Below are positions 42,972-62,813 of a stretch of 64,000 nucleotides of DNA, piece after piece (the stretch's first letter is position 1; the number at the start of each line of letters is the position of its first letter). Location of the stretch: the NCBI RefSeq assembly GCF_006538365.1, contig NZ_BJKN01000001.1, positions 186,001-250,000 on the forward strand, read 5' to 3'. A program made the translations under genes and the position numbers. Below the pieces are notes generated by a model. It was not told the DNA's origin, ran no database searches, and saw only the letters and a list, made by a program, of their open reading frames with translations. Origin of the DNA: Moorella sp. E308F (GTDB taxonomy: Bacteria; Bacillota; DSM-521; Neomoorellales; Neomoorellaceae).

Positions 42972-43188
42972 CGTTTAATTGTTCCTCCCACATTTTTACC
43001 ATCTGTTCTGCTTCTTTTAAATCAATCTTTTCTATGGCAAATCCGGCATGAACCAGCACATAATCGCCAACCTTTACCTGCCCCAGTAAAGCTATGGATA
43101 TCTCCCTGCGGGCGCCGTGAACATCAATTATCGCGGTTTCATCAGCCGCAGTTACCTTAATTACTTTACCCACAATACCTAAACACAT
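42946..43188 (-). CDS. hypC: Hydrogenase maturation chaperone HypC
   Basis: This 80-residue HypC begins MCLGIVGKV, with the essential Cys2 that binds the iron being decorated and contacts the hydrogenase large subunit. I chose ATG 43188, following GGAGGTGGCAACA, over ATG 43206. It overlaps hypF by 10 bp and hypD by 26 bp, so translation is coupled. Being in this operon it likely serves the HyfG/HycE subunit. Confidence 0.93.
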   Translation of the reverse strand: MCLGIVGKVIKVTAADETAIIDVHGARREISIALLGQVKVGDYVLVHAGFAIEKIDLKEAEQMVKMWEEQLNDVTPGQVL

Positions 43189-46096: not shown

Positions 46097-46140
46097 TGAT
46101 ATTCCCTCCGTCTGTTTTTAAAGGGTTCCTCCTGGAATTT

Positions 46141-46482
46141 TCATTCGCCTTCATAAAAATCAATATAAAGCTCCCTTCCTTGATCTATGGCAACCCTCCG
46201 CGACCCGCAGGAAGGGCACATAATACACCAGTTATCCAGAACTACTTCAGCCTGGCAATCCTGGCAGTGTCCCCGCCCGGGCCTTTCCTCTATTTCTAAT
46301 TGGGCCCCCTCAAACAACGGACCTTCTTTAAGCGCGTAAAAAGAAAACTCCAGGGCAGACGGTAAAACCGAGGTCATTGCCCCTATCACCAGCTTAACTT
46401 TCCGGATGCGCTTTATACCTTTCTCCCGGGCATTGCGTTCTAATAGCTTTAATAACTCAGCCGTCAGGGCCAGTTCATGCAT
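46141..46482 (-). CDS. hypA: Hydrogenase nickel metallochaperone HypA
   Basis: This 113-residue HypA has the nickel-binding N-terminus MHELALT (His2) and a Cys4 zinc finger (CQDCQ..CPSCG). I chose ATG 46482, with GGGAGAGGA upstream, because nickel binding requires the Met-His start; the frame opens 7 codons earlier. It starts ~18 bp after hycI. Confidence 0.94.
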   Translation of the reverse strand: MHELALTAELLKLLERNAREKGIKRIRKVKLVIGAMTSVLPSALEFSFYALKEGPLFEGAQLEIEERPGRGHCQDCQAEVVLDNWCIMCPSCGSRRVAIDQGRELYIDFYEGE

Positions 46483-46499
46483 CCTATTCCTCTCCCTGC

Positions 46500-46952
46500 T
46501 CAATCGAGGTGCGGAAAATCGAGCTCCCCCGTTTGCAGCTTTTGGTACACAGTCTCAACGGCTTGTTTTACTTCAGGCGAAATCGGCAGACCGAAGGCGA
46601 CTACCGCCGGCTGGATACCGACAAAATAGACTTCCGGCACCAGTTCTTTCAAAGCCGAGATGAAAAATGACAGGGGTAACCGGTGGGTGGTCAGAAAAAA
46701 CTCCCAGGCAATATCCTTCTCCGATATGAGGCGTATGCTCCCGGCCTGCAGGTTCATTTCGCAGGCATCCACTACCACCACCGCTTCCGGTTGGAGATCG
46801 CGCACCTGGTGCAGGTAATTCTCCGGCGCCGCCCCGCCGTTGATTACCTCCCACCCGGGGAGGCGTTTTTCTTCCAGGAGACGGGCCAGCAACGGCCCGG
46901 CTCCATCATCGCCCATCAGTTCGTTGCCTACAGTAATCACCAGCCCCTTCAC
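46500..46952 (-). CDS. hycI: Hydrogenase maturation endopeptidase HycI type
   Basis: This 150-residue M52-family protease has the three nickel-sensing ligands in conserved contexts: Glu in GNELMGDDGAGP, Asp in VVVDACEM and His in TTHRLPLSFF. It would remove the C-terminal tail of the HycE/HyfG large subunit after Ni is in place, the last step before folding shut. It overlaps hycH by 4 bp. Confidence 0.92.
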   Translation of the reverse strand: MKGLVITVGNELMGDDGAGPLLARLLEEKRLPGWEVINGGAAPENYLHQVRDLQPEAVVVVDACEMNLQAGSIRLISEKDIAWEFFLTTHRLPLSFFISALKELVPEVYFVGIQPAVVAFGLPISPEVKQAVETVYQKLQTGELDFPHLD

Positions 46953-47359
46953 TTAGTCAGCCTCACCACCAGATATATAGCCGGTTCTTTTCCTATAGAT
47001 TGGAGATGCTGGAGCAGGCAGCCGGCCCATTGCTTCTCTTCGGGGAGGAAACTGGAAGCAGCGCCGGCCAGTGCCGCTACTAATGTTGAAACATGCTCTT
47101 TATTTATCTCCAGCTCTCCCCACCTGGCCAGGCCCTCCAGCTTGCTTCTGGCTTTACCCCGGGGCAGCTTGCTAATCCATTGAAAATAGTCCTCCTCGTC
47201 GATAACCATGACGGGCGACAAACAATCAACCACCCCTATATGGTGACCGATGGCCAGAGCGTAATACTCCAGTTGCTTAACCCGGGGCGGAGCGTCTTTT
47301 TCGTCTTTTTCGTCCACAAACCTCTTGCATAACTTGTAGAATCTTACCTTACCCGGCAT
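46949..47359 (-). CDS. hycH: Formate-hydrogenlyase maturation protein HycH
   Basis: This 136-residue protein matches E. coli HycH, also 136 residues as I recall it, along its length: YYALAIGHHIGVVDCL, LEGLARWGELEINKEHV and a C-terminal AIYLVVR. HycH helps assemble the formate hydrogenlyase-type hydrogenase, step unknown. Its presence supports the Hyc/Hyf class rather than the smaller Ech/Coo class. It overlaps hyfI by 11 bp and hycI by 4 bp. Confidence 0.85.
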   Translation of the reverse strand: MPGKVRFYKLCKRFVDEKDEKDAPPRVKQLEYYALAIGHHIGVVDCLSPVMVIDEEDYFQWISKLPRGKARSKLEGLARWGELEINKEHVSTLVAALAGAASSFLPEEKQWAGCLLQHLQSIGKEPAIYLVVRLTK

Positions 47360-48101
47360 TATGGCCTACCCTCTCCATCTTCTCCATATAAATTTTGTGC
47401 AAGCTCAAAAAAACTTCGGCCAGTCGCGGGTCTTTCTCCTGCTTGATCAGCTCTTTAATCTTCCGGTCGACCGCCAGCGGGTCTCCTTCCCTGACGAACT
47501 GGAGATATTGGGCGGCTATGCGCCGTCCATGCAGGTAACCGCTCAAAAGGCGGGCCTCCTGCTCAATCTCTTTGGCCAGTTCGGGGCAAACTCCATCATA
47601 TTGCGGAACGACCCTGGTAACCTCCGTTTCTGCAAACTGCTCTCCTTTTATCTTTTGTTGGAGTAAATCCAGGGCCATAGCCAGGCCGTACAACGTCGCT
47701 GCCGGAGTTGGAGGGCAGCCGGGAATATATACATCTACAGGGAAAATGCTGTCAGCCCCTCCCCACACACTGTAACAATCATGAAAGATACCGCCGCTAC
47801 AGCCACACGCGCCGTAGGCTACCACGATTTTGGGATCGGGGGCCGCCTGATACGCCCGTATGGCCGGCAGCCGCATGGCCCTGGTCATGGGGCCGGTGTA
47901 GAGAAGAACATCGGCATGCCGGGGAGAGGCCACCACCTTCATCCCCAGCCTCTCCGGGTCGTAAACAGGAGAGGTGGCGGCAAAAATTTCAATCTCACAT
48001 CCATTACACCCCCCGCAGTCCACCCGGTAGATATAGACAGATCGTTTGATGACTTTCTTTAGCCTTGCCTTTAGCTCCGCCAGTTTTACTTCCTGGTCCA
48101 T
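47349..48101 (-). CDS. hyfI: Group 4 hydrogenase small subunit (NuoB/HycG-like)
   Basis: This 250-residue protein has the proximal [4Fe-4S] ligands of the NuoB family: CGGCNGCE near residue 30, GACGCSGG in the middle and IPGCPP. It passes electrons to the NiFe site in HyfG. A C-terminal ~90-residue charged helical extension (EIEQEARLLSGYLHGRR region) goes beyond the core. Starts 1 bp after hyfH; overlaps hycH. Confidence 0.93.
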   Translation of the reverse strand: MDQEVKLAELKARLKKVIKRSVYIYRVDCGGCNGCEIEIFAATSPVYDPERLGMKVVASPRHADVLLYTGPMTRAMRLPAIRAYQAAPDPKIVVAYGACGCSGGIFHDCYSVWGGADSIFPVDVYIPGCPPTPAATLYGLAMALDLLQQKIKGEQFAETEVTRVVPQYDGVCPELAKEIEQEARLLSGYLHGRRIAAQYLQFVREGDPLAVDRKIKELIKQEKDPRLAEVFLSLHKIYMEKMERVGHNAG

Positions 48102-48102
48102 C

Positions 48103-48654
48103 TTACTGCCTCCCTCCCGGCATCCTGCCCGGGCACCCGAGGACTCCGGTTGCGCTCGCCGTCTGCCGGCGCCGGCACTCCGGGCATACCTTTAGGAGCT
48201 GTTTCCAGCCTTCATGGCCGCCCTCCGGCAATCCTGCCTGCTTGAGGCTGGCCAGCACGTATTCCAGTTCGCGACAGGGTGCAAAGTATGCGCCACAGGA
48301 GATACACTTACAAAGCTTGAGCTCAGCCCGGCAGTACAGGTCCTCCTTGCTGGCGGTGGCCAATTCAAACTCTGCCGAAAGAACGATGGCGCCTGTAGGG
48401 CAAACTTCCTCGCAACGGCCGCAGAAAATGCAGCGGCCGTAGTTTATATTCCAGGACTTAACCCCTCGCTCTAAATCCCAGTCCATGGTAATGGCATTGG
48501 GCGGGCAAGCAGTAGCACAGGCGCCGCAAGCTATACACTGGCTAAAGTCGTAAACCGGTTTACCGCGAAACCCTGGTGCCACCTCAACCGGTTTAAAGGG
48601 ATACTCAACAGTAGCCTCCCCGACCTTTAGTGCTTTTCTTAGCAATTTTAGCAT
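48103..48654 (-). CDS. hyfH: Hydrogenase polyferredoxin subunit (NuoI/HycF-like)
   Basis: This 183-residue ferredoxin-type protein has two classic [4Fe-4S] motifs (CIACGACATACP and CIFCGRCEEVCP) that link the ferredoxin arm to HyfI. The C-terminal third contains additional cysteines (CKCISCG, VCPECRRR) that are typical of HycF/HyfH and may bind zinc or another cluster. The C-terminal Gly/Pro-rich end is loosely conserved. Confidence 0.92.
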   Translation of the reverse strand: MLKLLRKALKVGEATVEYPFKPVEVAPGFRGKPVYDFSQCIACGACATACPPNAITMDWDLERGVKSWNINYGRCIFCGRCEEVCPTGAIVLSAEFELATASKEDLYCRAELKLCKCISCGAYFAPCRELEYVLASLKQAGLPEGGHEGWKQLLKVCPECRRRQTASATGVLGCPGRMPGGRQ

Positions 48655-48693
48655 CCTGGGAATCCCCCTTCCTTTTGCTCGCTTCTAGCCGGG

Positions 48694-50427
48694 TTAGGAT
48701 TTTAGCGGCGAGTTTTTTCTTTCCTGGCAGTACCGTTCCAGCTCCTTGTATTCGATCGTCTTCGCCTTCTTTTTACGCACATCGACCACGGTAACCCTTT
48801 CAGCACAGGAATAGCAGGGGTCGATGCTGGCCACGATGAGGGGGGCATCGGACACCGTATTACCCCGAAACATATACCTGAGGGACGGCCAGTTATTATA
48901 GGTAGAAGCTCGCGCCCTCCACCGGTACACCTGCTGATTGTTTCCTGTCATTACCCAGTGGACATTTTCTCCCCTGGGGGCTTCAGTATATCCGAGCGCG
49001 AAGGTGTACGGTTTATAAGCAAACCCTTCCACGAGGACCGGCCCGGGGGGCATTTCGGTCAGGCACCTCTCAATGATTTTTAAGGACTCATAAAGCTCTG
49101 CCGCCCGTACCAGTTCCCTGGAAAGAACGTCGCATCCATCCCTGGAAATAACATCCCAGGGAACCCGATCGTAGGCACCGTAGGGATGGTCAGCCCGCGT
49201 ATCCCGGGCATACCCGGAACCCCGCATATTAGGACCCACCGGGCTGAAGTCCCGGGCTACCCCGGGGTCCAGGCGTCCTACCCCCTGGGTTCGTGAGATA
49301 AAGTTGGTGGTATTCAGCAGCAAGTCAAGGAGTTCATCCAGTTCGCCCCGGATCTCTGCGATTAGCCGCAAAACCTGGTCCCTTTCATCTTTTAAAATAT
49401 CCCGGCGCACGCCGCCAATAAGGTTCATGCCGTAGGTTTTACGGCCCCCGGTAAGAATTTCGGCCATCTGCATGGCCTTCTCCCGTACCCGGAAGAAATG
49501 CATAAAACCCGCATCGAAACCCACCAGGTGGGCCGCCAGCCCCAGATTCAGGAGGTGGCTGTGCATCCTCCCCACCTCCAGCAGGATGGTGCGGACATAC
49601 TGGGCCCGCGGCGGCACCTCAATCCCGTTGGCAGTTTCCACCGCCGATGCGTACGCCACACTATGGGTGTAACCGCAGATGCCGCAGATCCGCTCGGCCA
49701 GGAAAGTAACCTGGTCGTAGTCCATGCGGTTCTCGGCCAGTTTCTCGATCCCCCGGTGCACGTAGAAAAGGCGGTAGTCGGCGTCCACTATATACTCGCC
49801 GTCGACGTAGAGCCGGAAGTGTCCGGGCTCGTCGGAAGTAATGTGCAGCGGCCCCAGGGGTACCTCGACAATACCCTCCCCTTCTACTTCGATAAACTTG
49901 TAGTTTTCTTCCTCTGCCACCGGGTCGGGGCGGAAGCGGTAATCCATGGCGTCCTTCCGCAGGGGATACAGGTTGTCCGGCCAGTCATCGGGCAATACCA
50001 GTCTCCGCGCATCCGGGAGGCCCACCGGTTCCAGGCCGAACATATCTCGCACCTCCCGCTCGTACCATACGGCGGCCGGCACCCGCGGGGTCACCGAAGG
50101 AAACTCCGGTTTATGGGAAGGAATCAGGGCCTTCACCGTCAACCAGAAGTTTTTATCGGAATCCCTCTCTTTTTCGATGGATAAAACGTAGTACACCGCA
50201 AAGTGGCCGTTCAAGCCGCGCTCATCATTGCCGACAACACTGGAGAGCCACCCTCCCTGCCGGTAATATGCCTCTTCCACAATTTCCGGGAGGGAGCTGA
50301 GTTCGACCGTCAGGGTTACCTGGTCCGGTGTTTGCCAGGCCTCGGCAAGAATCGCCGCCCCGAACTTAGACCGCAAGGCCTCCACAGATTTTTTCCTGTC
50401 CTGTCCGGGTTTCATTTCATTTTGCAT
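48694..50427 (-). CDS. hyfG: Group 4 [NiFe]-hydrogenase large subunit (HycE/HyfG, NuoC-NuoD fusion)
   Basis: This 577-residue protein has a NuoC-like N-terminal domain (~1-170) fused to a NuoD-like catalytic domain. The Ni ligands are intact: RICGICGYTH (C248, C251) and DPCYSCAER (C538, C541). A 33-residue tail follows Arg544, close to the 32-residue tail cut from E. coli HycE, so HycI in this operon should process it. It catalyses H+ reduction to H2. Cys, not Sec, is at all four positions. Confidence 0.96.
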   Translation of the reverse strand: MQNEMKPGQDRKKSVEALRSKFGAAILAEAWQTPDQVTLTVELSSLPEIVEEAYYRQGGWLSSVVGNDERGLNGHFAVYYVLSIEKERDSDKNFWLTVKALIPSHKPEFPSVTPRVPAAVWYEREVRDMFGLEPVGLPDARRLVLPDDWPDNLYPLRKDAMDYRFRPDPVAEEENYKFIEVEGEGIVEVPLGPLHITSDEPGHFRLYVDGEYIVDADYRLFYVHRGIEKLAENRMDYDQVTFLAERICGICGYTHSVAYASAVETANGIEVPPRAQYVRTILLEVGRMHSHLLNLGLAAHLVGFDAGFMHFFRVREKAMQMAEILTGGRKTYGMNLIGGVRRDILKDERDQVLRLIAEIRGELDELLDLLLNTTNFISRTQGVGRLDPGVARDFSPVGPNMRGSGYARDTRADHPYGAYDRVPWDVISRDGCDVLSRELVRAAELYESLKIIERCLTEMPPGPVLVEGFAYKPYTFALGYTEAPRGENVHWVMTGNNQQVYRWRARASTYNNWPSLRYMFRGNTVSDAPLIVASIDPCYSCAERVTVVDVRKKKAKTIEYKELERYCQERKNSPLKS

Positions 50428-50451
50428 GCTACTGGCAGCCTCCTTTACCCT

Positions 50452-51891
50452 CTAGCCTAACAGGATAAAAACAATGTACTGGGAAATCACGGTCATGATC
50501 ATGAGCACGGCGAGAACAAATTTGATCGCCAGAGGCGGTTCAGCCGCACTGGCAACTACCTCCGAGGGTGCCCCCAGGACGTTCGCTCCCATCCACTTCA
50601 GGAACCAGATGAAACTGCCAACGGATTCAAGAACCGTAATGATAATCAGGGCAAGGATCAGGGGGTAGTGCCTGCCAATCTCAAAACCGCTAATTATGAT
50701 CATAAATTTACTAAAAAAACCATTAAAAGGGGGGACGCCAGCAATGGCCATAGCAGCCGCAATATAACCCAAACCCACCACCGGGATTTTATTTAGAATT
50801 CCCTTGAGCAGCGAAAGCAGGCGGGTACCGGTTGTATAGGACAGCGTACCGGCAACCAGGAAGAAGAGCCCCTTAGCAAAAGCGTGGTTGAAGATGTGGG
50901 CCACCGCTCCGTTAAAGGCCATCCTGGAGCCGTAGATGGAAATGGAGAACGCCAGGAAAATATAAGAGAGCTGGGTGATGGTCGAGTAGGCGAGGAGTCG
51001 CTTCATATCATCCTGCGGGAAATACATGATAAAACCGTAGATCATGGTGACCACAGCCATGATGGCCCCGGCCTGGCCGATCACCTGGGGAACCGACCCC
51101 GTTGCCAGGACGGTCCGGGCAAAGATGTAGACGCCGACCTTAACCATCGAAGCGGCATGCAAATAGGCGCTCACCGGGGTCGGCGCCACCATCGCCCGGG
51201 GGAGCCAGGGATGAAAAGGAAGCTGGGCGGACTTACCCCAGCAGGCGATCAGGATCCCGGTAAAGGCAATGGTTTTCCCGGCGTCCGTTAATTTATTAAG
51301 GGCGGTCACCGCGTAGCTGCCGGTGTTTACATAGAGATAGGCAGTAGCCACATAGAGTCCCAGCGCGGCGATGTGAGTGAGTATAATCGCCCAGAGGGCG
51401 GAATTCCGGGATTTTTGATCCCCGTAAAATCCGATCAACCCCCATGAGCAGAGACCGGTCATTTCAAAGAAGAACAGGAGCCCGAGGAGCGTGGAAGAGA
51501 AGACCACGCCCGCCATAGAGCCGATAAAAAGCAGCATGAGGGCATAAAACCGGGGAACCCCTTCTTTAATAGGATGCTCTTTGTTGTCAGGGCTCATGTA
51601 CCCGGCCGAGTAGGTGCAGATCAGCCAGCCGAGAAAAACTACCATGAAGTTGACCAGGACACTGAGGGTATCTATAGTGACACCGTAGTAGTTAATACCG
51701 TTTAAAGTAACCAGTTCCCGGGTGAAGCTTGCGCGGTTGAACGCAAAAGCGATCAGTAAAAGCAAACCGCTGGTAAAAGCCAGGAGGGAGAAAATCTGGC
51801 TTGCCTTTTTCACGTGTCGCTCTGGTAAAAATAGGACCAGGGGGCTTCCTAATACCGGCAGCAAGATGCTTCCCAGCGCATACCAAATCAT
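50452..51891 (-). CDS. hyfD: Third antiporter-like membrane subunit of the hydrogenase (HyfD-like)
   Basis: This 479-residue polytopic protein of the NuoL/M/N-MrpA/D family has the ion-path Lys and His in WGKSAQLPFHPWLPRA, HAASMVKVGVY, and NHAFAKGLFFLVAG. E. coli HyfD has the same length as I recall it. It is one of three antiporter-like subunits here and would move H+ or Na+ when H2 forms. The gene lies between hyfF and hyfG, not between hyfC and hyfE as in E. coli, so the symbol is by analogy. Confidence 0.8.
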   Translation of the reverse strand: MIWYALGSILLPVLGSPLVLFLPERHVKKASQIFSLLAFTSGLLLLIAFAFNRASFTRELVTLNGINYYGVTIDTLSVLVNFMVVFLGWLICTYSAGYMSPDNKEHPIKEGVPRFYALMLLFIGSMAGVVFSSTLLGLLFFFEMTGLCSWGLIGFYGDQKSRNSALWAIILTHIAALGLYVATAYLYVNTGSYAVTALNKLTDAGKTIAFTGILIACWGKSAQLPFHPWLPRAMVAPTPVSAYLHAASMVKVGVYIFARTVLATGSVPQVIGQAGAIMAVVTMIYGFIMYFPQDDMKRLLAYSTITQLSYIFLAFSISIYGSRMAFNGAVAHIFNHAFAKGLFFLVAGTLSYTTGTRLLSLLKGILNKIPVVGLGYIAAAMAIAGVPPFNGFFSKFMIIISGFEIGRHYPLILALIIITVLESVGSFIWFLKWMGANVLGAPSEVVASAAEPPLAIKFVLAVLMIMTVISQYIVFILLG

Positions 51892-51946
51892 CTAAAGCGC
51901 ACCTCCAGTATCCCTCATTAATGGGATCGACCTTTTGCTGACAATT

Positions 51947-53434
51947 TTATTTACCTCCCAGGACAACGCTGGCTGCGCCCTGCAGTAATTGATTTAGCGG
52001 GGCCGGTACATGTATCCCCAGCCCGGCCATGAGCACGAACAGGATCCCGATGGGCAACAAGCACAGCCACCCGGCGTCACCCCGGGGGAGGTCCTCCGGA
52101 GGAAAACCGAGTACCGTGTCGCTTATAAGGATAATAAATGCGACAAAAACGATCACCAGAAGGACAAGAAAGAGTATCATCGGCCAGAAATACCCACCTT
52201 GCAGTCCGGCCGCCAGGGTCATAAACTCGCTTACGAAGATGCTGAAAGGCGGTGCACCGACCACAGCAAGAAGGCCGGCCATGAACATAAAACCAGTAAA
52301 GGGGGCCACCTTTAGCATTCCCCGGATCTTCTGGGCGTCCCTGGTACCATACTTGCGAGCCACATTGCCCACCGTGCAGAACAAAAGGGATTTAGTGAGG
52401 CTATGGTTGATGACGTGAAAGAGCGCGGCAAGTATTCCCAGCGGCCCTCCTGCGCCCAGACCGGTGGCGATGATGCCTACATGCTCAACACTACTGTAAG
52501 CCAGCTTCCTTTTAATGTCGTTCTGCACCAGGATGAAGAAAGCCGCGACACCCACCGAGAGAAGGCCGAAGATGAGGAGCAGGGTCTGGGGGAATTCCTT
52601 GCCGACGGCCTGCAAGGTAATGGGATAATATCTTAATATACCAAATAACACGCACTTCATCAGTACACCCGACAGCAGGGCGCTAACCGGGCTCGGGGCC
52701 TCGCTGTAGGTGTCAGGCAACCAGGTGTGCATAGGAACCAGGCCGACCTTGGCGCCGTAACCGATCAAGATGAAGACAAAGGCCAGTTTCATCACCTGCG
52801 GGTCGAGTCCCCGGGCCATCCCTGCTAACTCAGTCCATAGCATCGCCCTGTGGGCGTCCTGCACCACAGCAAAGGCACTGGAGTAGGTCAGGATGGTCCC
52901 GTACAGGGCAAAGGCCAGGCCGACGCTACAGATCAGGACGTACTTCCAGACAGCTTCCGCCGCAGTCTTGTGTTTATAGAACCCGACCAGGAAGGCCGAG
53001 CCCAGGGTGGTTGCTTCTATCGCAACCCACATAATAGCAATATTGTTAGATATAGCAGCAAAAACCATCGTCAACAAAAGTAGATGGTAAAAACCGTAGT
53101 AAGAGCAGACGCCCTTCGCATCAACCCGGCCCTGCGCCAGGTCATGTCGCAAATATCCTATAGAATAAAAACCGTCCAGAAACCCTACCACCCCGATGAT
53201 AAGAACCAGGAGCGCCGTGAGGCCGTCGGCGTAGAGCATCCCGTCCAGGGCCAGCAGCGTTTGTCCCCTCAGGACATACTGCACCAGCAGCAAGGAGAGA
53301 AGAGCCACGCTGCTAATCCCGGCCAAGTGCACAACCTCCACCATGCGCCGGGACCTTATCCCAAAAGCGATCAGGGCCGTTCCAAGGGGCACCGCGGGCA
53401 AGTAGTATAAAATATTCTCCCCCACTTCTATCAC
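51947..53434 (-). CDS. hyfF: Antiporter-like membrane subunit HyfF
   Basis: This 495-residue protein has ~14 membrane helices and the family signatures YGAKVGLVPMHTWLPD, PSPVSALLSGVLMKC and NHSLTKSLLFCTVGN, which include the conserved Lys residues of proton paths in complex I antiporter subunits. It is HyfF-like by position after hyfE. It starts 1 bp before the hyfE stop region, so translation is coupled. Confidence 0.87.
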   Translation of the reverse strand: MIEVGENILYYLPAVPLGTALIAFGIRSRRMVEVVHLAGISSVALLSLLLVQYVLRGQTLLALDGMLYADGLTALLVLIIGVVGFLDGFYSIGYLRHDLAQGRVDAKGVCSYYGFYHLLLLTMVFAAISNNIAIMWVAIEATTLGSAFLVGFYKHKTAAEAVWKYVLICSVGLAFALYGTILTYSSAFAVVQDAHRAMLWTELAGMARGLDPQVMKLAFVFILIGYGAKVGLVPMHTWLPDTYSEAPSPVSALLSGVLMKCVLFGILRYYPITLQAVGKEFPQTLLLIFGLLSVGVAAFFILVQNDIKRKLAYSSVEHVGIIATGLGAGGPLGILAALFHVINHSLTKSLLFCTVGNVARKYGTRDAQKIRGMLKVAPFTGFMFMAGLLAVVGAPPFSIFVSEFMTLAAGLQGGYFWPMILFLVLLVIVFVAFIILISDTVLGFPPEDLPRGDAGWLCLLPIGILFVLMAGLGIHVPAPLNQLLQGAASVVLGGK

Positions 53435-54085
53435 CTAACCCTTTAGTAGTGTGAACTTATCCGTATCCAGGGTGTCGAAGACCTTGAAGAGGCGCCTGGC
53501 GATGATAGTCATGATCAGGACCGCAAAAACCGCATCGGTCAGGATGCCGATTTCTACTGTCTCGGGGGCGTTATAAGCCATGATGGCCAGGGTCAAATGC
53601 GAGCCGTTTTCCATCAGGCAATAGCCCAATATCTGCTTGAGGGCATTTCTTCTAGCAAGTATGCAGAGCAACCCGAGGAGAAAATGGGCTATAGAAACCG
53701 CCAGCGCAACCTTCAACTTTAGTACCGCATGCATATGAAAAGGCTCGACTATCACGAACGATAAAGCCACCAGGCCCACCGCAAGAAAAACAGACGAGCT
53801 TGTCTCCAGTGCCGGCCCCTCCTCTTCCTGGTTCCCTACCGTTTTGAGGGTCCTGATGATGAGATAGGGCACCAGGAAGGTCTTGGTGATGAGGGCAGTA
53901 ATGGACCAGATGTACAGCGGTTCCGCCTGCATAAATACGGCCAGGGACAGAAAAATCGCCACCAGGACCAGGGACTGGATACTGTACATGTACGCCGCCC
54001 TCCGGAGCTTTCTGGTTTCCACCACCAGCATCGAGGTCAGGATGAGCAGCACAGCCAGGGCGTTGACTACGCTGGTACCGGACAC
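53435..54085 (-). CDS. hyfE: Membrane subunit HyfE (NuoK-like)
   Basis: This 216-residue membrane protein has about seven helices. Its C-terminal half is NuoK-like, with ALKQILGYCLMENGSHLTLA. It matches HyfE, which lies between the NuoH-like and antiporter-like subunits in hydrogenase-4 complexes and contributes to the ion-translocating channel. Starts ~23 bp after hyfC. Confidence 0.85.
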   Translation of the reverse strand: MSGTSVVNALAVLLILTSMLVVETRKLRRAAYMYSIQSLVLVAIFLSLAVFMQAEPLYIWSITALITKTFLVPYLIIRTLKTVGNQEEEGPALETSSSVFLAVGLVALSFVIVEPFHMHAVLKLKVALAVSIAHFLLGLLCILARRNALKQILGYCLMENGSHLTLAIMAYNAPETVEIGILTDAVFAVLIMTIIARRLFKVFDTLDTDKFTLLKG

Positions 54086-54108
54086 TATCAGATCCCCTCC
54101 CGCTTCTA

Positions 54109-55050
54109 TTAAACATTGGCCAGGTAGAAAACGAAGGACAGCAAGGCTATGCCGAAAGCCGCCCAGGTTACTGCGGGGGCCTTAAAAAGGAGTAATCTGG
54201 CCATGCTGTTTTCCAGCAGGGCAGCGATAACGTAAAAACCGGCAACCTTCAATAAAAAGACAGCCGTGGATACCAGGAGGGAGGAAGTACTGACCACCGC
54301 CGCGCTCCCATAGGGGAAGAAAACGGCCAGAAACAGGGCGATCACCACAACCTGCTTCATATATAAACCCCATTTCAGGAGGGCCAGGGAGCGACCGGAA
54401 TATTCCGTAAGGGGTCCCTCCTGGATTTCCTGTTCTGCTTCCGCCAGGTCAAAGGGCAGCTTGCCGGTTTCGATGAAGGTGGCGACAGCAAAGGAAGCCA
54501 TGGCCAACCAGACTGCCGGGCTAAAATATGATATCTCACCGGCCGCCACCTTCTGGCTGATTGTTCCCAGATCGGTCGTCCCGGCGAGAAGGGCGACCAC
54601 AAACAGCACCAGGATAATAGTTGGCTCTACGAGCACGGCCAGGGCCATCTCCCGGCTGGCCCCTATTCCGGCGAACCCGCTGCCGGAATCCAGACCTGCA
54701 AGGGCAAAGAAGAAGCGGACCACGGTGAACAGGTAAACGACAGCGATGAGATCAGCGGCCATCCCCAGGGGCGACTGCAGGGTTAAAATCGGAATCACCA
54801 TGGCAACGAGCAGGGTGGTTGCCATAACCACATAGGGAGTAAACCGGAAGACCCAGCTGGTCTGGGCAGGCACCACCTCTTGCCTTTTGATGAGTTTGAA
54901 GATATCCCGGTAGTTCTGCAAAATACCGGGACCTTTCCTGGAGTGCAGCTTTGCCCTTAAAGTGCGGGAAAAGCCCGTAAAAAGAGGCGCTACCAGCAGG
55001 ACGAGCAAGGCCTGCGCCAGGCCGATGGGGAGCAACTCGTTACCGGGCAT
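54109..55050 (-). CDS. hyfC: Membrane subunit HyfC/HycD (NuoH-like)
   Basis: This 313-residue membrane protein has ~8 helices and NuoH signatures: RAKLHSRKGPGILQNYRD near the N-terminus and ETGKLPFDLAEAEQEIQEG with the acidic residues that couple redox to ion movement. It anchors the hydrophilic arm (HyfG/H/I) to the membrane. Starts 12 bp after hyfB. Confidence 0.92.
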   Translation of the reverse strand: MPGNELLPIGLAQALLVLLVAPLFTGFSRTLRAKLHSRKGPGILQNYRDIFKLIKRQEVVPAQTSWVFRFTPYVVMATTLLVAMVIPILTLQSPLGMAADLIAVVYLFTVVRFFFALAGLDSGSGFAGIGASREMALAVLVEPTIILVLFVVALLAGTTDLGTISQKVAAGEISYFSPAVWLAMASFAVATFIETGKLPFDLAEAEQEIQEGPLTEYSGRSLALLKWGLYMKQVVVIALFLAVFFPYGSAAVVSTSSLLVSTAVFLLKVAGFYVIAALLENSMARLLLFKAPAVTWAAFGIALLSFVFYLANV

Positions 55051-55062
55051 CTTTCTCTCCTC

Positions 55063-57084
55063 CTATCTGACCGTTGCTACCAGCAGGACTACGAGCGTTA
55101 CGATTATATACAGGCAATACAGCCGGACATTCCCTATCTGGAGGGCTTGCACCCGTTTACCCAGACGTACCGTACCCCGTAACAGGGGACCGTAGAGGTA
55201 ATCTTTCCACAGCGACTCCACACGGGCGACGTAGACCACTGCTTCCTTGCCATACGCCGCAATGGTATAGCCCGGCCCCGCGAGGGTGGTCCTTAGCAAA
55301 TAGGCCGGGCGGAAAAGCACCCTTAATGGCTGGGCAAAGGCGGTAGCCGCGTACACCATCCGCGGTGAGTATTTATATCCGCATGCCCACGGCTCGGCAT
55401 CGATCCGCCGCCCGGCCTGCATCCCACCTTGCATCCCGGCAATTAACAGGGGTAACGTGACAAACCCCACCAGGAGAAGGGCAAGGAGGGGCGGGGAAAG
55501 CACCGCCCGGGCGCTGCTTGCCGGAAATACCAGCAGCCCGTCACTTACCCGGACCGGAGAGGCGCCCAGCAACGCCGCGGCCACATTGCCAATATAAGGA
55601 GCAACAACCGGTGCGCCCAGCCCGAGGGCAATGCAGCCAACCGCTAAAATCGCCGTCCCGGCAAGCATCGGCACCGGCACTTCCCTGGCCTCCCGGGCGC
55701 GATTGCTGCGCCAGGGACCGGTAAAAGTGACCCCATAAGCTTTTACAAAGCACATCGCCGCCAGGGCGCCCGTTAGAGCGAGCATAATTGCCAAAAGGGG
55801 TGACAGCACTTTGACCGCCAGGAAGCTGCTGGTGCTCGCCATTAACAGGGACTGGTATATAAACCATTCACTGACAAAACCGTTGAGAGGGGGAATAGCC
55901 GCGATGGCCAGAGCGCCGGTCAAAAAAGCCAATCCGGTCCACGGCATTCGCCTGGCCAGCCCGCCCATCTCCTCCATGTTTTTGGTGTGGAGGCGATAGA
56001 TTACCGAGCCTGCCCCGAGAAAAAGGAGGCCTTTAAAGGCAGCATGGTTTACCAGGTGATAGAGCCCCGCCAAGATGCCGAGCATTCCCAGAACGGGTTC
56101 TCCCCTGGCTATGCCAATCATGCCAGCACCGATGCCCATCAGGATGATCCCCACGTTTTCGATACTGGAATAGGCCAGCAGCAGCTTGAGATCATTTTCA
56201 TTTATTGCATAAAGCACACCCAGAACCGCCGAGATTGCTCCGAAGGCCAGGACCGTAAGGCCCCACCACCAAACGGAAGCGCCGAGGAAATCGACACTGA
56301 CCCTGAGTATGCCGTAGATAGCGGTTTTAATCATTACACCCGACATGAGGGCGGAAACGTTGGAAGGAGCCGCAGGGTGAGCCCGCGGCAGCCAGAAGTG
56401 GAGTGGCATAATACCGGCTTTGGCCCCGAACCCGAAGAAAGCCAGCAAGAAGGCCAGGTGTTTGGTAGCCGGCGGAAGGTTTGCATTGCGGAAGGAAGCA
56501 AAATCAAAGGTGCCCGTATAGACGAAAAATATAATAAATGACAGCATAATCATTACTTCCCCGGCATGGGCCACCAGGAAATAGATAAATCCGGCATTGA
56601 CACTCTCCGGGTTTTCCTGGTCGAAACTAACCAGGAAATAGGAAACCAGGGTCATCAGCTCCCAAAAAACGAGAAAATAGAAGGCGTCGCCGCTAGCAAC
56701 CACCAGGACCATGGACGCAAGGAAAATGTTATTCAAAAAGCCCAGTACCCCGGCGCCCCTCCCGGCATACTCCTCCTGATAAGCAAGGGAGTAAATAGCT
56801 GTAGCGGCGGCCAGCAGCGAAATGACCAGCACCATAAAGGCAGAAAGGAGATCGACCCGGATAACAAAGGGCGCAAAGGGAATAAACCCCGCCGCTGCCA
56901 TTGTAAAGCCCGTACCACGAGCGAAGACCGGGATGGCCGCAGCCATCCCGGCACTCGCTGCCACAAAGGCGCTTATTCCTGAAGTATAGTTGGCAATTTT
57001 ACCGGCTCTGTTCAGCGCCAGGGAGGCAACTGCTCCGGCGACATACAGGAGAATGGACAGCAGAAATAACTGCTGAACGATCAT
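55063..57084 (-). CDS. hyfB: Long antiporter-like membrane subunit HyfB (HycC/NuoL-like)
   Basis: This 673-residue protein (E. coli HyfB is about 672) has ~16 helices. Key residues are seen in FWELMTLVSYFLV (Glu), GAKAGIMPLHFWLPRAHP (Lys), SGVMIKTAIYGI (Lys) and NHAAFKGLLFLGAG. The C-terminal ~150 residues extend beyond the antiporter core, as in HycC/HyfB. ATG 57084 follows GGAGG at 9-base spacing. A 126-bp gap with a hairpin separates it from cooF. Confidence 0.92.
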   Translation of the reverse strand: MIVQQLFLLSILLYVAGAVASLALNRAGKIANYTSGISAFVAASAGMAAAIPVFARGTGFTMAAAGFIPFAPFVIRVDLLSAFMVLVISLLAAATAIYSLAYQEEYAGRGAGVLGFLNNIFLASMVLVVASGDAFYFLVFWELMTLVSYFLVSFDQENPESVNAGFIYFLVAHAGEVMIMLSFIIFFVYTGTFDFASFRNANLPPATKHLAFLLAFFGFGAKAGIMPLHFWLPRAHPAAPSNVSALMSGVMIKTAIYGILRVSVDFLGASVWWWGLTVLAFGAISAVLGVLYAINENDLKLLLAYSSIENVGIILMGIGAGMIGIARGEPVLGMLGILAGLYHLVNHAAFKGLLFLGAGSVIYRLHTKNMEEMGGLARRMPWTGLAFLTGALAIAAIPPLNGFVSEWFIYQSLLMASTSSFLAVKVLSPLLAIMLALTGALAAMCFVKAYGVTFTGPWRSNRAREAREVPVPMLAGTAILAVGCIALGLGAPVVAPYIGNVAAALLGASPVRVSDGLLVFPASSARAVLSPPLLALLLVGFVTLPLLIAGMQGGMQAGRRIDAEPWACGYKYSPRMVYAATAFAQPLRVLFRPAYLLRTTLAGPGYTIAAYGKEAVVYVARVESLWKDYLYGPLLRGTVRLGKRVQALQIGNVRLYCLYIIVTLVVLLVATVR

Positions 57085-57210: not shown

Positions 57211-57696
57211 CTATCTAAATGAAACAGCGGCCGCCAGGCGCCGTTCGGCTTCAAACTCCTCCACGGTCTGGAAGACCAGGGCCCCGGTGGGGCAGGCTCG
57301 CACACAGGCCGGTACGCCCTCCTCATCCAGGCACTCCCGGTCGCACTTTACGGCCTTACCTTCGCCCCGGCCCACTGCACCGAAGGGGCAGGCCATGGCA
57401 CACATCCAGCAACCGATGCACCGGCGCAAGGCGACCACGTTGACGCCGTCTTCCCGCCTGTGCATCGCGCCGGTGATGCAGACGGCCACGCAAGGCGGCT
57501 CCTCGCATTGCCGGCAGACGGCCGGAGCTTTCACCCTGCCTACCTGGTCCACATAGAGGCGCTTCTGCGGCCTTTCGCCCCCCAGTAGGGCTCCAAACAG
57601 ATTCCGGGCCGCGGTGTGGCTCACGGCGCAAGCCAGCTCACAGGAACGGCAGCCCGTACACCGTTCATAACGAACAAAGATCTCCTTCCGTTTCAT
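57211..57696 (-). CDS. cooF: Four-cluster ferredoxin subunit linking CO dehydrogenase to hydrogenase (CooF/HycB/HyfA-like)
   Basis: This 161-residue protein has four Cys groups: CTGCRSCELAC, CRQCEEPPCVAVC, CIGCWMCAMACPFGAV and a CDRECLDE..ACVRACP set, making about four [4Fe-4S] clusters. It is a member of the CooF/HycB/HyfA family that connects an electron-donating dehydrogenase to a membrane hydrogenase. It overlaps cooS by 4 bp (ATGA), so the two are translated together, which argues that CooS is its partner. Confidence 0.92.
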   Translation of the reverse strand: MKRKEIFVRYERCTGCRSCELACAVSHTAARNLFGALLGGERPQKRLYVDQVGRVKAPAVCRQCEEPPCVAVCITGAMHRREDGVNVVALRRCIGCWMCAMACPFGAVGRGEGKAVKCDRECLDEEGVPACVRACPTGALVFQTVEEFEAERRLAAAVSFR

Positions 57697-59627
57697 CGCC
57701 GGGCACCTCCCGGGACGTTGAGCCCCAGACCGGCCCGGCGCTCGTCGATGGCCGCCAGGAGCTTCTGGCCCGCAGACTCGGGATCGGGTTCCACGATGAA
57801 GTAACCGCCGGTCAAGTCCCGGACTTTATCCGTCAGCACCTGGGTGACGTAGCGGCTACCAACCACCGGCAACATGACCCCCACGTGGGTGGGGATACCG
57901 AGGGTCACCGCCCAGGTGCCGATGGCGACCGCTTTTTCAGCCGTCGCCTCAGGGGCCGAAGCGACCACGGGAAGTTGATCCGTGTCCACACCCAGCCGGT
58001 TGGCCAGGGGCACCGCCAGGGCCACCGCCCGCGAGGTGTCCACGCAGGAGCCCACGTGCAGCACCGGCGGCAGGGGCCCGCCCAGGCCGTTGGCCTCGCC
58101 GATGGCCGTCAGGACCGCCTTCAAGCCTTCCCCGCACACCTCATCCACACTGGCCGGATCCATAAACCCGTGGCGCATGAGCGCCCCCGCGCCGCAGCCG
58201 GAGGCTAAAACCAGCACGTTCTCCTTCAGGAGGCGGCGGGCCATGGTGACGAAGTTCCTATCTTGCGGAACCTTGACGTTGTTGCATCCGCAGAAGAGGC
58301 ACACCCCGCGAATGTTGCCGGCGACGATGTTGTCAAGCAAAGGCTTAAGGGGATCGTCGGCATTCAACTTAGAGAGGGCGTTTATGATGGCTTCCGCGGA
58401 GAAACCCGCCACCACTTTGGACCTGTTCTGCGGTATGTCCACCGGCTTACCCCGGCGCCGGATGAAGGCCTCGATGGCGTGGCGAATGATCTCCCGGGCG
58501 ATCTCTTTAGCCCTTTCTTCCGCGAAGGGGATGTGGATCGCACCGGGGATCTTCATGGTTTCCATGGTGGTGATCAGCCTGGTCCCCATGCACTCTGCCA
58601 CCGTAGCGAGAGAGGGCATGATGCACTGGTAATCCATCACGACGGCATCGAGGGCGCCGGTGATCAGGGCCATCTCCTGGCTGAGCGAATGGGTGCAGGA
58701 CGGAATGCCGTGGCGCATCAGCACCTCGTTGCCGGTGCAGCAGATGCCCACCACATTCACACCCCCGGCGCCGGCTGCCTTGGCTTCCGGCTTCATCTCT
58801 TCGGCTACTTGGACGATGATTTCGGATAAAACCGGGTTGTGGCCGTGGACCGCCACGTTAACCATGTCCGCTTTGAGGACCCCTAAATTGGCCTCACTGA
58901 CCACGGGCTGGGGCGTGCCGAAGAGGATGTCGGACAAGTCGGTACCCATGTGGCAACCCGCAAAGTCCGCAAGGGAGCAACGTATCCCCGCCTGGAGGAG
59001 GTTAATCGGGTCTGCGTCACAGCCGTAATGCGTCCGGTGCATAATATCGGCGATCTCGTAGTCTATCCCCTTAGGCATCAAGCCTCGTTCCATAAGGAGC
59101 TTGCTCCGCTTCTCGGTCACCGTGGTGGCCACCCACGTGACCGGCGCTTCCGTTGCTTTCTCGTTAAAGTCCGCCAGAGCCGCCTCGGCAACGGCCAGGC
59201 CAATCTCGGCCTCGCTCCTGCCTTTTGTGGGAATGCCGAGACGTTCAGCCACTTTGCGGAGCTTGGCTTTGTCTTTAATGGCGTAGTCCGGTGCCTTACC
59301 CCGAACCGCCTTTTTCAAGGTGTGGGCAATGTGCTTCGCATGGCCCGAGTGGGACGCCCCGCCGGCCGCGATGGCGCGATCCAGGCCTCGCGCGACGATG
59401 ACGTCCGCCGTAGCCCCGCAAATCCCCGCCTTGGGCTCGCCACCAAAAGGATCTATACGGCAGGGGCCCTGCAGGCAGTGCCGGCAACACAGCCCGGTTT
59501 CCCCAAAGCCGCACTGGGGAAGCATCGCCTGGTAGCGATCCCAGACCGTCTCCACCTCCAGGCGCCCGGCCTTTTCCACCATTTCGCAAACCGCCGGGTC
59601 CAGAGAAACCTTACACGACTTGGCCAT
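57693..59627 (-). CDS. cooS: Monofunctional nickel CO dehydrogenase catalytic subunit
   Basis: This 644-residue enzyme oxidises CO with water to CO2, 2 H+ and 2 electrons. With ATG 59627 (9 bases after GGAGG) the D- and B-cluster cysteines fall at 39, 47, 48, 51, 56 and 70, the same numbers as in the Carboxydothermus CooSII enzyme. C-cluster ligands are also present: His261 (AVHGHN), Cys in GICCTGN (~296), YQCIMP (~335), FCGC (~446), SGCGAG (~478) and GSCVD (~528). No acetyl-CoA synthase is in the window, so this is not the bifunctional complex. Confidence 0.96.
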   Translation of the reverse strand: MAKSCKVSLDPAVCEMVEKAGRLEVETVWDRYQAMLPQCGFGETGLCCRHCLQGPCRIDPFGGEPKAGICGATADVIVARGLDRAIAAGGASHSGHAKHIAHTLKKAVRGKAPDYAIKDKAKLRKVAERLGIPTKGRSEAEIGLAVAEAALADFNEKATEAPVTWVATTVTEKRSKLLMERGLMPKGIDYEIADIMHRTHYGCDADPINLLQAGIRCSLADFAGCHMGTDLSDILFGTPQPVVSEANLGVLKADMVNVAVHGHNPVLSEIIVQVAEEMKPEAKAAGAGGVNVVGICCTGNEVLMRHGIPSCTHSLSQEMALITGALDAVVMDYQCIMPSLATVAECMGTRLITTMETMKIPGAIHIPFAEERAKEIAREIIRHAIEAFIRRRGKPVDIPQNRSKVVAGFSAEAIINALSKLNADDPLKPLLDNIVAGNIRGVCLFCGCNNVKVPQDRNFVTMARRLLKENVLVLASGCGAGALMRHGFMDPASVDEVCGEGLKAVLTAIGEANGLGGPLPPVLHVGSCVDTSRAVALAVPLANRLGVDTDQLPVVASAPEATAEKAVAIGTWAVTLGIPTHVGVMLPVVGSRYVTQVLTDKVRDLTGGYFIVEPDPESAGQKLLAAIDERRAGLGLNVPGGARR

Positions 59628-59803
59628 CAGCATCGACCTCCTTGAGGAATATGCGGCAACGCCGCAGGATTGTAAACTTTATTACCTGCTTTCATATCAA
59701 AGCGTCAGCGGCCTTCCGTCCGGTCAACTTCCTGCAACTACTGCAGCCCTGAAAACGCGGGGAGTAAAACCAGGGAACGGAGGGTTTCTGCAGCAACTAT
59801 TCC

Positions 59804-59836: not shown

Positions 59837-60646
59837 CTAACCTCCACCTTTTATTTTTATGGTTATATTTGTTCCCCCTATGTCCGGGGCAATAGCCCGT
59901 CGGTTTAGCACCCTGGCAGCCAGCTCGGCAATACCTGCTGCGGTAAAAGACTGCTCACCGGTAAAACCAGCAGCTTGATCTAAAATTTCTGCTTGGAAGG
60001 GTATCAGGCCGATGACATCGTCCGGCGGCAGGTGGCTGAGGATAAATTCCTTATCCCGGGGTTGACGCAATTTGTTGCCTACAAACTTTATTCGCTTAAT
60101 ACCAAGTTCAGCGGCCAGTTTTTGGACGACCCGGGCGGTCTGGACGCTGACCAGGGTGGGCTCGGTAATAATCAACATCAGATCTACCCCCCGGGCCGTA
60201 CCCCGGGTCAGGTGCTCGATGCCAGCCCCCATATCCAGGACCACCATTTCCCGGTGTTTTAGGATTAGGGCATTAACCATGGCATTTAAGACGGCATTTT
60301 CCCGGCAATAGCAGGTCGATCCCCCGGGCTTGATGGCTCCCATTTTCAGAAAAAGGATATTTCCGTTCTTTATGGTATAATCTTGCAGCAGGCTATCTAC
60401 TTCCGGGTTTAGAGAAAAGAAGGCGCCGCTGCCGCCGGTGCGCTCGGCAAGCAATTCTCGCATCTCCACGATAGGTTTAATGGTACCGAGCCTTTCCTCG
60501 GGGAGCCCCAGAACCATACCCAGGCTGGTATCGGGATCGGCATCGACGGCGTATACCTGGTAACCCTGCCGGGCAAAATATTTAATTAAGCCGGCAGCGA
60601 TAGTGGTCTTGCCGACACCACCTTTCCCGGAAATGGCCAGCTTCAC
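59837..60646 (-). CDS. cooC: CO dehydrogenase nickel-insertion ATPase CooC
   Basis: This 269-residue MinD-type ATPase has deviant Walker A GKGGVGKTT and the CxC motif in STCYCREN, which binds Ni or Zn at the dimer interface of CooC. VVLDMGAGIEHL is the Walker B-like region. It loads nickel into the C-cluster of CooS. The start is GTG 60646, 7 bases after GGAGG. It is the first gene of the operon and lies ~190 bases downstream of a consensus sigma-54 promoter. Confidence 0.94.
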   Translation of the reverse strand: MKLAISGKGGVGKTTIAAGLIKYFARQGYQVYAVDADPDTSLGMVLGLPEERLGTIKPIVEMRELLAERTGGSGAFFSLNPEVDSLLQDYTIKNGNILFLKMGAIKPGGSTCYCRENAVLNAMVNALILKHREMVVLDMGAGIEHLTRGTARGVDLMLIITEPTLVSVQTARVVQKLAAELGIKRIKFVGNKLRQPRDKEFILSHLPPDDVIGLIPFQAEILDQAAGFTGEQSFTAAGIAELAARVLNRRAIAPDIGGTNITIKIKGGG

Positions 60647-60842
60647 TTGAACACCTCCTCTGTTCTGCTTCTCTTCTGTCCCTTGCTAAACAAGGCTAAC
60701 GCAGACATTATCCATACCAAAGGCCTTTACTTCACTCTGGCAATGGCCTTAAGTAAATTAGGTAAAAAGGTATAAAATCGAAGTTATAAAATCAAGTGTT
60801 TAACCAAGATGAAATAACGCAAAAGCTACCTTTGTGTTCTAT

Positions 60843-60858
60843 AGCAAAAAGCGTGCCA
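60843..60858 (-). promoter_or_regulatory. Consensus sigma-54 (-24/-12) promoter of the cooC-cooS-hyf-hyp operon
   Basis: The minus strand reads TGGCACG-CTTT-TTGCT, a perfect match to the sigma-54 consensus with GG and GC 10 bases apart. Transcription would start near 60831, ~185 bases before cooC. It directly abuts the T run of the regulator's terminator. Confidence 0.88.
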
Positions 60859-60889
60859 AAAGAAAAAGGCCGCCAAAGCTTGACGGCCT
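60859..60889 (-). terminator. Terminator of the sigma-54 activator gene
   Basis: AGGCCG-C-CAA and TTG-A-CGGCCT form a 9-pair stem (60867-60889, one mismatch) followed on the minus strand by TTTTTCTTTT. It isolates the activator transcript from the sigma-54 promoter just beyond. Confidence 0.88.
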
Positions 60890-60899
60890 AAGAACCTCG

Positions 60900-60937
60900 A
60901 TGTCAATTTAGTTTTACACGTTAAAAAGAGTTGACAT
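60900..60937. promoter_or_regulatory. Dyad in enhancer position, candidate activator binding site
   Basis: Perfect 7-bp arms ATGTCAA and TTGACAT are separated by 24 bases, with an inner TTTTA-N5-TAAAA dyad (60912-60926). It lies roughly 70-105 bases upstream of the predicted start of the sigma-54 transcript, where enhancer-binding proteins act. It could instead be an RNA element at the end of the activator mRNA. Confidence 0.45.
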
Positions 60938-62769
60938 TAATTTTTAAGCAAGCCATAGCTGGCCATTTTAGTATAGAGTGCCTGGCGGGAAAGGCCTAAT
61001 GCCTTGGCGGCCCTTGTTTTTTCTCCGCCAAAAGCTTCCAGGGCCTGAATGATGGCCTCCTTTTCCGCTTCTATCCGGACTTTATAAAGGGGGGAGATCT
61101 CCCTCAACCTTTTCTTTTTACCATGATAGCCTATCGTGAGGTGATGGGGATGGATTTCCTGGGTTTCAGCCAGGATGGCAGCCCTCTCCAGGACATTTTC
61201 CAATTCCCGGACGTTGCCCGGCCAAGAATAGCTTAGAAGACTCTCCATAGCGCCGGGAGTAAGCCGTAATTTTTTCCCATATTCTTTGTTTAGCCTTTGT
61301 AAAATGGCCTCTGCCAGGAGAGGTATGTCTTCCGGCCGCTCTTTAAGGGGTGGGAGCACTAGCGTGACCACATTTAAGCGGTAAAAGAGATCTTCCCGAA
61401 AACGGCCTTCATGTACCATTTTTTCCAAATCCTTGTTGGTAGCTGCTATCACCCGCACATCTATTTTTCTGGTCCGGGTGCTCCCCAACCGCTCAATCTC
61501 TTTATCTTGCAAAACCCTTAAAAGCTTGGCTTGCATATTAAGGGGCATATCTCCGATTTCGTCCAAAAAGATGGTCCCGCCGTGAGCCAGTTCAAACTTT
61601 CCAGGTTTGCCGCCCTTTTTAGCTCCAGTAAAAGCGCCTTCCTCATAACCGAAGAGTTCGGATTCTAGAAGTTCCGGTGGGATGGCTGCGCAGTCTACTT
61701 TTATTAAAGGCGCGTTACGGCGGGGGCTTTCCTCATGGATAGCCTGGGCCAGGACCCCTTTTCCGGTACCGCTTTCTCCCAGGATGAGTACAGTAGCATT
61801 GCTCCCGGCTGCTTTCTGGGCCAGGCTTAAAACGTCCCTAAAATAGTGATTTAAAGTCCGGATGTGGCGGAAATTGAAGAGGCACCCAGCGGGTTTGAAG
61901 TTTGCAGGGTTATGGCCAACTCTGGCTTCTACTTTTTTAAGCTGTTCCAGGAGAAGACGTACAGGCTCGCTTTCATCGGAAAAAAACTGGTACAGCACAC
62001 CCTCTATTTCGGATTGGATCCAAAGAGGCGTTCCTATGACGATGATAGTATTCCCCTTTGTTTTCTGGAATTCCCATACCCGTGGTCTGCCGGATTGGAT
62101 TATTTCGGAGTATTGGGCTATAGGGATTACTTCTTCCAACATGCGGCCTTGCACCCTTTGACCTGTAATACCCAGTATTTGGAGGCCGGCCTTATTTATC
62201 CCTACCACTCTCCCCTGGTTATCGGTAATCACCAGTCCCAGGGGTATTATATGGAAGATGGCTTCCCCGATGCTTAAAGGGAACCCTTTTACCTCTTTTT
62301 CGGACCCGAGGGTAGCCTGGCGGTAGCTTCTAGTTGCCAGCAAAGCCTGGAAGGTAAGATCTTTAAGCAATCTATTGTTTTTTTCGAGGGGAAAGAAGGA
62401 ATAAGGCTCATCAAGACCAGAAACAGGGGATATGGTTGCTTCCATCTGGCAATAATGTTCCCCTGTCCCCCAGCATTTGGTTTCTTCGACCTCTATTCTT
62501 TTTTTAAAGAGTTTGTTGAGAGCCCCGGCGAGCAGGCCCCCTTCCAAATAGCATAATTGCTGGCCTACAGGCGGAAAATGAGAACAAGTGAAACATTCAT
62601 TCCATTTAACGGTTATTTTACCGCCTTTTACACTTTTCAACTTAAGGTTTCCTATTCCCAGGGCGCTTATTTTATCCGGTATTTCTTCCAGGTCGTTTAC
62701 AGGAAGCTGACTGCCAATAGAATAGCCCGCCCGGTAATAAACTGTATTCTCCGGGGTACTGGCTAGCAT
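60937..62769 (-). CDS. V4R-PAS-AAA+-Fis sigma-54-dependent transcriptional activator
   Basis: This ~610-residue activator has four parts. A V4R domain lies at ~1-115, with a C-x22-E-x2-C-x7-C set (C73, E96, C99, C107) like the zinc site of phenol-sensing DmpR-type regulators. A PAS domain follows at ~165-280. The AAA+ domain (~310-545) has GESGTGKG and the sigma-54 contact loop GAFTGA. A Fis-type helix-turn-helix (TRAAKALGLSRQALYTKM) ends it. The gene directly precedes a sigma-54 promoter and the CO/hydrogenase operon, so it likely controls it. I chose ATG 62769 (GGGAG at ~8 bases) over 62793. Confidence 0.92.
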   Translation of the reverse strand: MLASTPENTVYYRAGYSIGSQLPVNDLEEIPDKISALGIGNLKLKSVKGGKITVKWNECFTCSHFPPVGQQLCYLEGGLLAGALNKLFKKRIEVEETKCWGTGEHYCQMEATISPVSGLDEPYSFFPLEKNNRLLKDLTFQALLATRSYRQATLGSEKEVKGFPLSIGEAIFHIIPLGLVITDNQGRVVGINKAGLQILGITGQRVQGRMLEEVIPIAQYSEIIQSGRPRVWEFQKTKGNTIIVIGTPLWIQSEIEGVLYQFFSDESEPVRLLLEQLKKVEARVGHNPANFKPAGCLFNFRHIRTLNHYFRDVLSLAQKAAGSNATVLILGESGTGKGVLAQAIHEESPRRNAPLIKVDCAAIPPELLESELFGYEEGAFTGAKKGGKPGKFELAHGGTIFLDEIGDMPLNMQAKLLRVLQDKEIERLGSTRTRKIDVRVIAATNKDLEKMVHEGRFREDLFYRLNVVTLVLPPLKERPEDIPLLAEAILQRLNKEYGKKLRLTPGAMESLLSYSWPGNVRELENVLERAAILAETQEIHPHHLTIGYHGKKKRLREISPLYKVRIEAEKEAIIQALEAFGGEKTRAAKALGLSRQALYTKMASYGLLKN

Positions 62770-62813
62770 ACCTTTTCTCCCCCCAGCGTCCATTTTTGCT
62801 TCCGCTCAATTCC

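Follow-up and report, generated by a model that had tools for sequence, protein, structure and literature searches.

The CO-oxidizing, hydrogen-forming CO dehydrogenase (CODH) operon of the thermophilic anaerobe Moorella sp. E308F appears, with a probability of roughly 0.85, to be driven by a CODH-linked sigma-54 switch made up of three parts: a V4R-PAS activator, a paired operator, and a -24/-12 promoter. All three lie within the window, the 64,000-nucleotide stretch of DNA analyzed here. How would such a circuit operate? A CO-linked signal would reach the V4R domain of the activator, and perhaps its PAS domain as well. The activator would bind paired TGTCAA/TTGACA palindromes some 86 bp ahead of the start site, and its AAA+ domain would remodel the sigma-54 polymerase waiting at 60843-60858, thereby switching on cooC-cooS-cooF-hydrogenase-hyp. 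Transcription running on from the activator gene would be halted by a terminator between operator and promoter, leaving the operon off unless sigma-54 is activated. The parts of this circuit that can be read directly from sequence are the activator domains with their GAFTGA loop, rpoN, the promoter, the operator, their conservation, and the link to CODH. How hydrogenogenic Moorella, which lack known CO sensors, switch their CO metabolism had been left open in print (PMC7306483); there is now a concrete circuit, with an activator, a predicted operator, a promoter, and an inferred start site. Since it is tied to CODH and spans distant families, it may represent a general, non-CooA way of detecting CO, or the redox change that CO brings about. 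Syngas biotechnology, too, could make use of a defined promoter and activator.

The promoter was first proposed in the first-pass annotation as a near-ideal sigma-54 site before cooC-cooS-cooF-hydrogenase, a claim borne out by its sequence, spacing, and conservation. The site reads TGGCACG-CTTT-TTGCT and occupies 60843..60858 of the minus strand (plus strand, agcaaaaagcgtgcca; the 16-mer as read on the minus strand, TGGCACGCTTTTTGCT), with the -24 box at 60858-60852 and the -12 box at 60847-60843. Its GG and GC are 10 bases apart, and the textbook sigma-54 consensus is matched completely. It is placed between the end of the activator gene (60937) and the start of cooC (60646), all on the minus strand. 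The end of the -12 box is 196 nt from the GTG of cooC, and judging from the box positions, transcription would start near 60832.

How unusual is such a site? In genome-wide pattern searches, the exact motif TGGCACN5TTGCW occurs 7 times in the 3.06-Mb genome versus about 3 expected from base counting, and there are 101 matches with no more than one mismatch versus 38 for a reversed control. The full 12-base pattern with zero mismatches occurs once in the window. The bare motif by itself is therefore only moderately unusual; motif strength alone is suggestive, and it is the context that decides its significance. In that context, TGGCAY-N5-TTGC arose in 11 of 20,000 dinucleotide shuffles of the site's own intergenic region. 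The site is at the same place in all 10 genomes that carry the activator (seven close relatives, own genome included, and three genomes from other families), and the leader behind it (50 to 364 nt) is not conserved. All 16 bases are identical in six of the seven close relatives; the remaining one, G009, differs at a single spacer base. The genome encodes nine sigma-54 activators, and for seven of their genes a TGGCAY-N5-TTGCW site lies no more than 600 bp away, where chance would give 0.07. Placing activator genes next to the promoters they target is thus a habit of this genome, to which the CO operon conforms. The sigma factor itself, whose gene the first-pass annotation had named as a check on its proposal, is encoded: rpoN was found (PF04552, E 2.8e-59).

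Could the motif nonetheless be a chance match, with the operon driven by a sigma-70-type promoter in the leader? The moderate rarity of the bare motif in the genome would allow it, and an AT-rich leader of 190 nt could hide a weak promoter. However, a consensus scan of 60600-61000 found no sigma-70-type promoter, the terminator stops read-through, and the site is retained, adjoining a sigma-54 activator, in every one of the 10 genomes. Moreover, two of these (G016 and G017) leave just 50 nt between the -12 box and the gene. We regard a chance match as very improbable. The site is very probably a working sigma-54 promoter, and the operon would be sigma-54 dependent.

The operon behind the promoter, all of it on the minus strand, begins with cooC (59837..60646, GTG start), a CODH nickel-insertion ATPase of the Pfam CbiA/ParA type named by position and similarity. 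It is followed by cooS (57693..59633), encoding the Ni-CO dehydrogenase catalytic subunit (NCBIfam TIGR01702, 754 bits against a cut-off of 478), and by a cooF/hycB-like gene for a four-cluster ferredoxin (57211..57696, Pfam 4Fe-4S). A Hyc/Hyf-type membrane hydrogenase occupies 46500..57084 (hyfB, C, E, F, and D; hycE, F, and G; hycI). Its first three genes, hyfB, C, and E, were named from Pfam Proton_antipo_M, NADHdh, and Oxidored_q2, and its large subunit is NuoCD-like by NCBIfam; the other hyf and hyc names are from position and sequence reading. The hydrogenase maturation genes hypA, hypB, hypF, and hypD (41838..46503), identified by sequence reading and gene order, probably form the last part of this operon. 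Two close relatives are informative about what the promoter serves. In G005, cooC is missing (L187 15434-15898), and in G018 only its first third was found (L191 12565-12807); both retain the promoter, which therefore would serve the operon as a whole. Published Moorella clusters (PMC11328732) match in gene order and in the absence of cooC. In G005 (L187), the cooS, cooF, and hydrogenase proteins are 97 to 99% identical to those of the window and the activator 87%, a pattern suggestive of a recombination or transfer event whose breakpoint fell between the activator gene and cooS.

The strongest evidence within the window is the activator gene, which was absent from the first-pass annotation. 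It lies at 60937..62793 on the minus strand, ending just upstream of the promoter on the same strand as the operon, and encodes 618 amino acids. By Pfam, these comprise a V4R domain, a PAS domain, an AAA+ sigma-54 interaction domain, and a Fis helix-turn-helix (HTH); together with the GAFTGA loop, which is invariant among the aligned activators, this marks the protein as a sigma-54 activator. Orthologues sit beside cooS in 10 of 10 genomes. The protein falls short of the NCBIfam models for NorR (316.3 bits, cut-off 476), MobR (293.8 bits, cut-off 999), and FhlA (283.3 bits, cut-off 830). Just upstream, at 62955-63992 on the minus strand, is a gene for a subtilisin-like serine protease.

Directly behind the activator stop codon begins a predicted operator, a paired palindrome and putative upstream activating sequence (UAS) (TGTCAACTCTTTTTAACG followed by TGTAAAACTAAATTGACA; 60901..60936, minus strand), recognized by conservation and centered at about -86. 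TGTCAA-N24..27-TTGACA, 36 to 39 bp overall, is found between the stop codon and the promoter in all 10 genomes, 7 times exactly and 3 times with one mismatch. Several genomes have a second pair of inner arms, with which the operator reads as two adjoining TGTCAA-N6-TTGACA palindromes. The pattern appeared in 0 to 8 of 20,000 dinucleotide shuffles of the upstream parts of five genomes, and it occurs at only two places in the 3.06-Mb genome, the second without inner arms. From operator center to -24 box is 60.5 to 63, 70.5, or 81 to 82.5 bp across the 10 genomes. These are steps of about 10 bp, or one helical turn, and with only about three independent values they are suggestive. The adjacent activator is the likely ligand of this operator.

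Between operator and promoter lies the intrinsic terminator of the activator gene (60867..60889, minus strand), which is kept in the seven close relatives. It is the one terminator that a consensus scan found in 60600-61000, and it stands directly before the -24 box, so that the conserved block ahead of that box is partly terminator. Within 60859-60889, its T run leads straight into the -24 box, an arrangement shared by G059 and G389. In G248, a T run follows the operator palindrome, which could double as a terminator. A terminator just ahead of a -24/-12 site is also seen at several other activator genes of the genome.

How widespread is this arrangement? A cooS at least 82% identical is present in seven of 101 genomes (own included), and the activator, 82 to 99% identical to that of the window, is directly upstream in all seven. 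Further away is G059, to which a profile search of 398 phylum genomes added G389 and G248. Their activators are 36 to 39% identical, and they belong to other families than the close relatives. In each, activator, operator, and promoter precede cooF-cooS-cooC, with roughly 105 to 120 nt between the activator stop codon and the -24/-12 site; hydrogenase was not detected beside these genes in the stretches examined. All told, 10 full-length V4R-PAS activators were found in the 101 relatives and 398 phylum genomes, every one beside cooS. The recurrence of the three-part switch before the CODH genes of distant relatives suggests a regulator of CO metabolism unlike CooA and RcoM. No further case turned up in the class to which G059 belongs, where the expected layout had been fixed before the search; this neither supports nor weakens the proposal. 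When contigs were searched with the entire activator, most matches were AAA+ paralogues at 35 to 47% identity (maximum, 56%), none of them near cooS or spanning the V4R domain. V4R sequences were also seen in reading frames of 475 amino acids in G047 (L303 4311-4640) and 542 amino acids in G291 (L304 5537-5848), with no CODH gene in the stretch examined. The V4R of G291 is followed by sigma-54 activator sequence, and a hypD-like gene is nearby on the other strand.

Did the switch come with the hydrogenase or with CODH? The formate hydrogenlyase of Escherichia coli has a Hyc/Hyf-type hydrogenase under the control of FhlA and sigma-54, and the first-pass annotation proposed a formate hydrogenlyase ancestry for the sigma-54 switch. 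On this account, an FhlA-type promoter would have been kept when CODH replaced formate dehydrogenase, and the Hyc/Hyf type of the hydrogenase in the window is in keeping with it. The hydrogenase also resembles the Fdh-Ech cluster of Moorella thermoacetica (PMC13040438). However, the nearest Fdh-linked relative, G004, whose large subunit is 85% identical, does not carry the switch: focA and fdh are upstream of its hydrogenase, the closest regulator looks like a repressor of the ArsR type, and neither the activator nor a -24/-12 site was found before focA. The distant relatives, as mentioned, carry the switch with CODH and no detected hydrogenase. Nor is the activator an FhlA, as it fails the FhlA model and has no GAF match in Pfam. 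FhlA senses formate with GAF domains, whereas the activator here is of the V4R-PAS type and CODH linked; what the two would share is control of a Hyc/Hyf-type hydrogenase by a sigma-54 activator, proposed in the present case. The ancestry claim thus fails, and a formate hydrogenlyase relic is highly unlikely. By comparative sequence evidence, the switch travels with CODH, not with the hydrogenase.

What might the activator sense? A full-length AlphaFold model is poor (pLDDT 54), and a V4R-only model built with 18 sequences reaches a pLDDT of 89. The latter superposes on the sensors of the phenol degradation regulators PoxR (Z 16.7), MopR (Z 15.7), and DmpR (Z 15.0). H-NOX heme sensors are weaker matches to the fold (Z 8 to 9) and were not counted as evidence for heme. 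C81, E104, C107, and C115 of the Moorella activator align with the zinc-ligand positions of this group, as seen against MopR; the cysteine spacing is C-x25-C-x7-C, and the Glu lies three residues ahead of the middle Cys. The zinc ligands of DmpR have been described (PMC7264223). A CxxC formed by C67 and C70 is invariant in eight aligned activators and not found at the aligned MopR positions. Neither the V4R nor the PAS part of the aligned activators has an invariant histidine, which gives no indication of a heme of the CooA or FixL type. The phenol pocket of DmpR includes His100 and Trp128. Overall, DmpR, PoxR, and MopR share with the Moorella protein the plan of a one-component sigma-54 activator (V4R sensor, AAA+, and Fis HTH), the V4R fold (Z 15 to 17), and the C, E, C, C pattern of zinc ligands. 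They differ in that the Moorella activator has a PAS domain between V4R and AAA+, the extra CxxC, a sensor only 16 to 19% identical, and CODH as its probable target.

Known CO sensors were also sought. CooA was not found in the genome, as far as tested. Comparisons were made with CooA of known structure and with the CODH-adjacent CRP-family protein of G068, since a regular expression for CooA ligands can overlook divergent forms. The genome's only CRP-family protein scores 125 bits to general CRP/FNR entries versus 68 to CooA and is 29% identical to the G068 protein. No RcoM (PAS-LytTR) was found either, as all three LytTR proteins of the genome begin like CheY-type response regulators. According to Inoue et al. 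(PMC7306483), none of the known CO-sensing factors is encoded by hydrogenogenic Moorella. Like the activator here, for which control is proposed, CooA and RcoM are encoded beside the Ni-CODH operons they control, but CooA is of the CRP type and RcoM is a PAS-LytTR protein, both with heme. The operators differ too: TGTC-N8-GACA for CooA (PMC7306483) versus TGTC-N10-type arms here.

The balance tips modestly toward a signal linked to CO. Whether this is CO itself or a CO-caused redox change, read by C67, C70, C81, C107, and C115 plus E104, is uncertain. Alternatively, the switch could be genuine and its activator respond to some other cue, such as nickel, a metabolite, or a different gas, with control by CO exerted by another route; we take this possibility seriously, at somewhat worse than even odds. 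V4R activators known so far bind phenols, many V4R-only proteins share the C67/C70 motif, and one published annotation calls the gene norR; against this stand the failed NorR model, the lack of any other CO sensor found in the genome, and the strict CODH linkage in all 10 genomes, some of whose operons consist of cooF-cooS-cooC alone. One tentative and rather doubtful extension is that the V4R cysteine cluster constitutes a third type of CO sensor, based on a metal or on thiols instead of heme, and governs CODH operons through sigma-54 in several Bacillota families.

The activator gene itself has been noticed before. A "RocR-like" activator upstream of Moorella CODH-ECH clusters was suggested to respond possibly to CO (PMC7306483), and a gene upstream of the Moorella CODH-ECH cluster was annotated norR (PMC11328732). 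Both are very probably the same gene, in the same order, as in the window. Neither paper mentions a V4R domain, an operator, a sigma-54 promoter, or relatives with CODH alone. The present evidence supports the CO-response proposal of PMC7306483, adding a promoter, an operator, a sensor domain, and phylogenetic linkage. A literature search that did not extend to subscription papers and supplements found no publication joining sigma-54 with a Ni-CODH promoter and no report of the promoter, operator pair, or V4R sensor of this system. A survey of Clostridiales sigma-54 regulons lists V4R activators and does not mention CO dehydrogenase in its text.

Two repeats were seen elsewhere in the genome (G000). 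TGGCATTGTTTTTGCT is present five times (C1:607664, 608874, 844559, and 1027242; C3:204206) and may belong to a repeated element. At C2:1129384-1129465, three copies of TGGCTCAGCTTTTGCT spaced 33 bases apart form a short tandem array.
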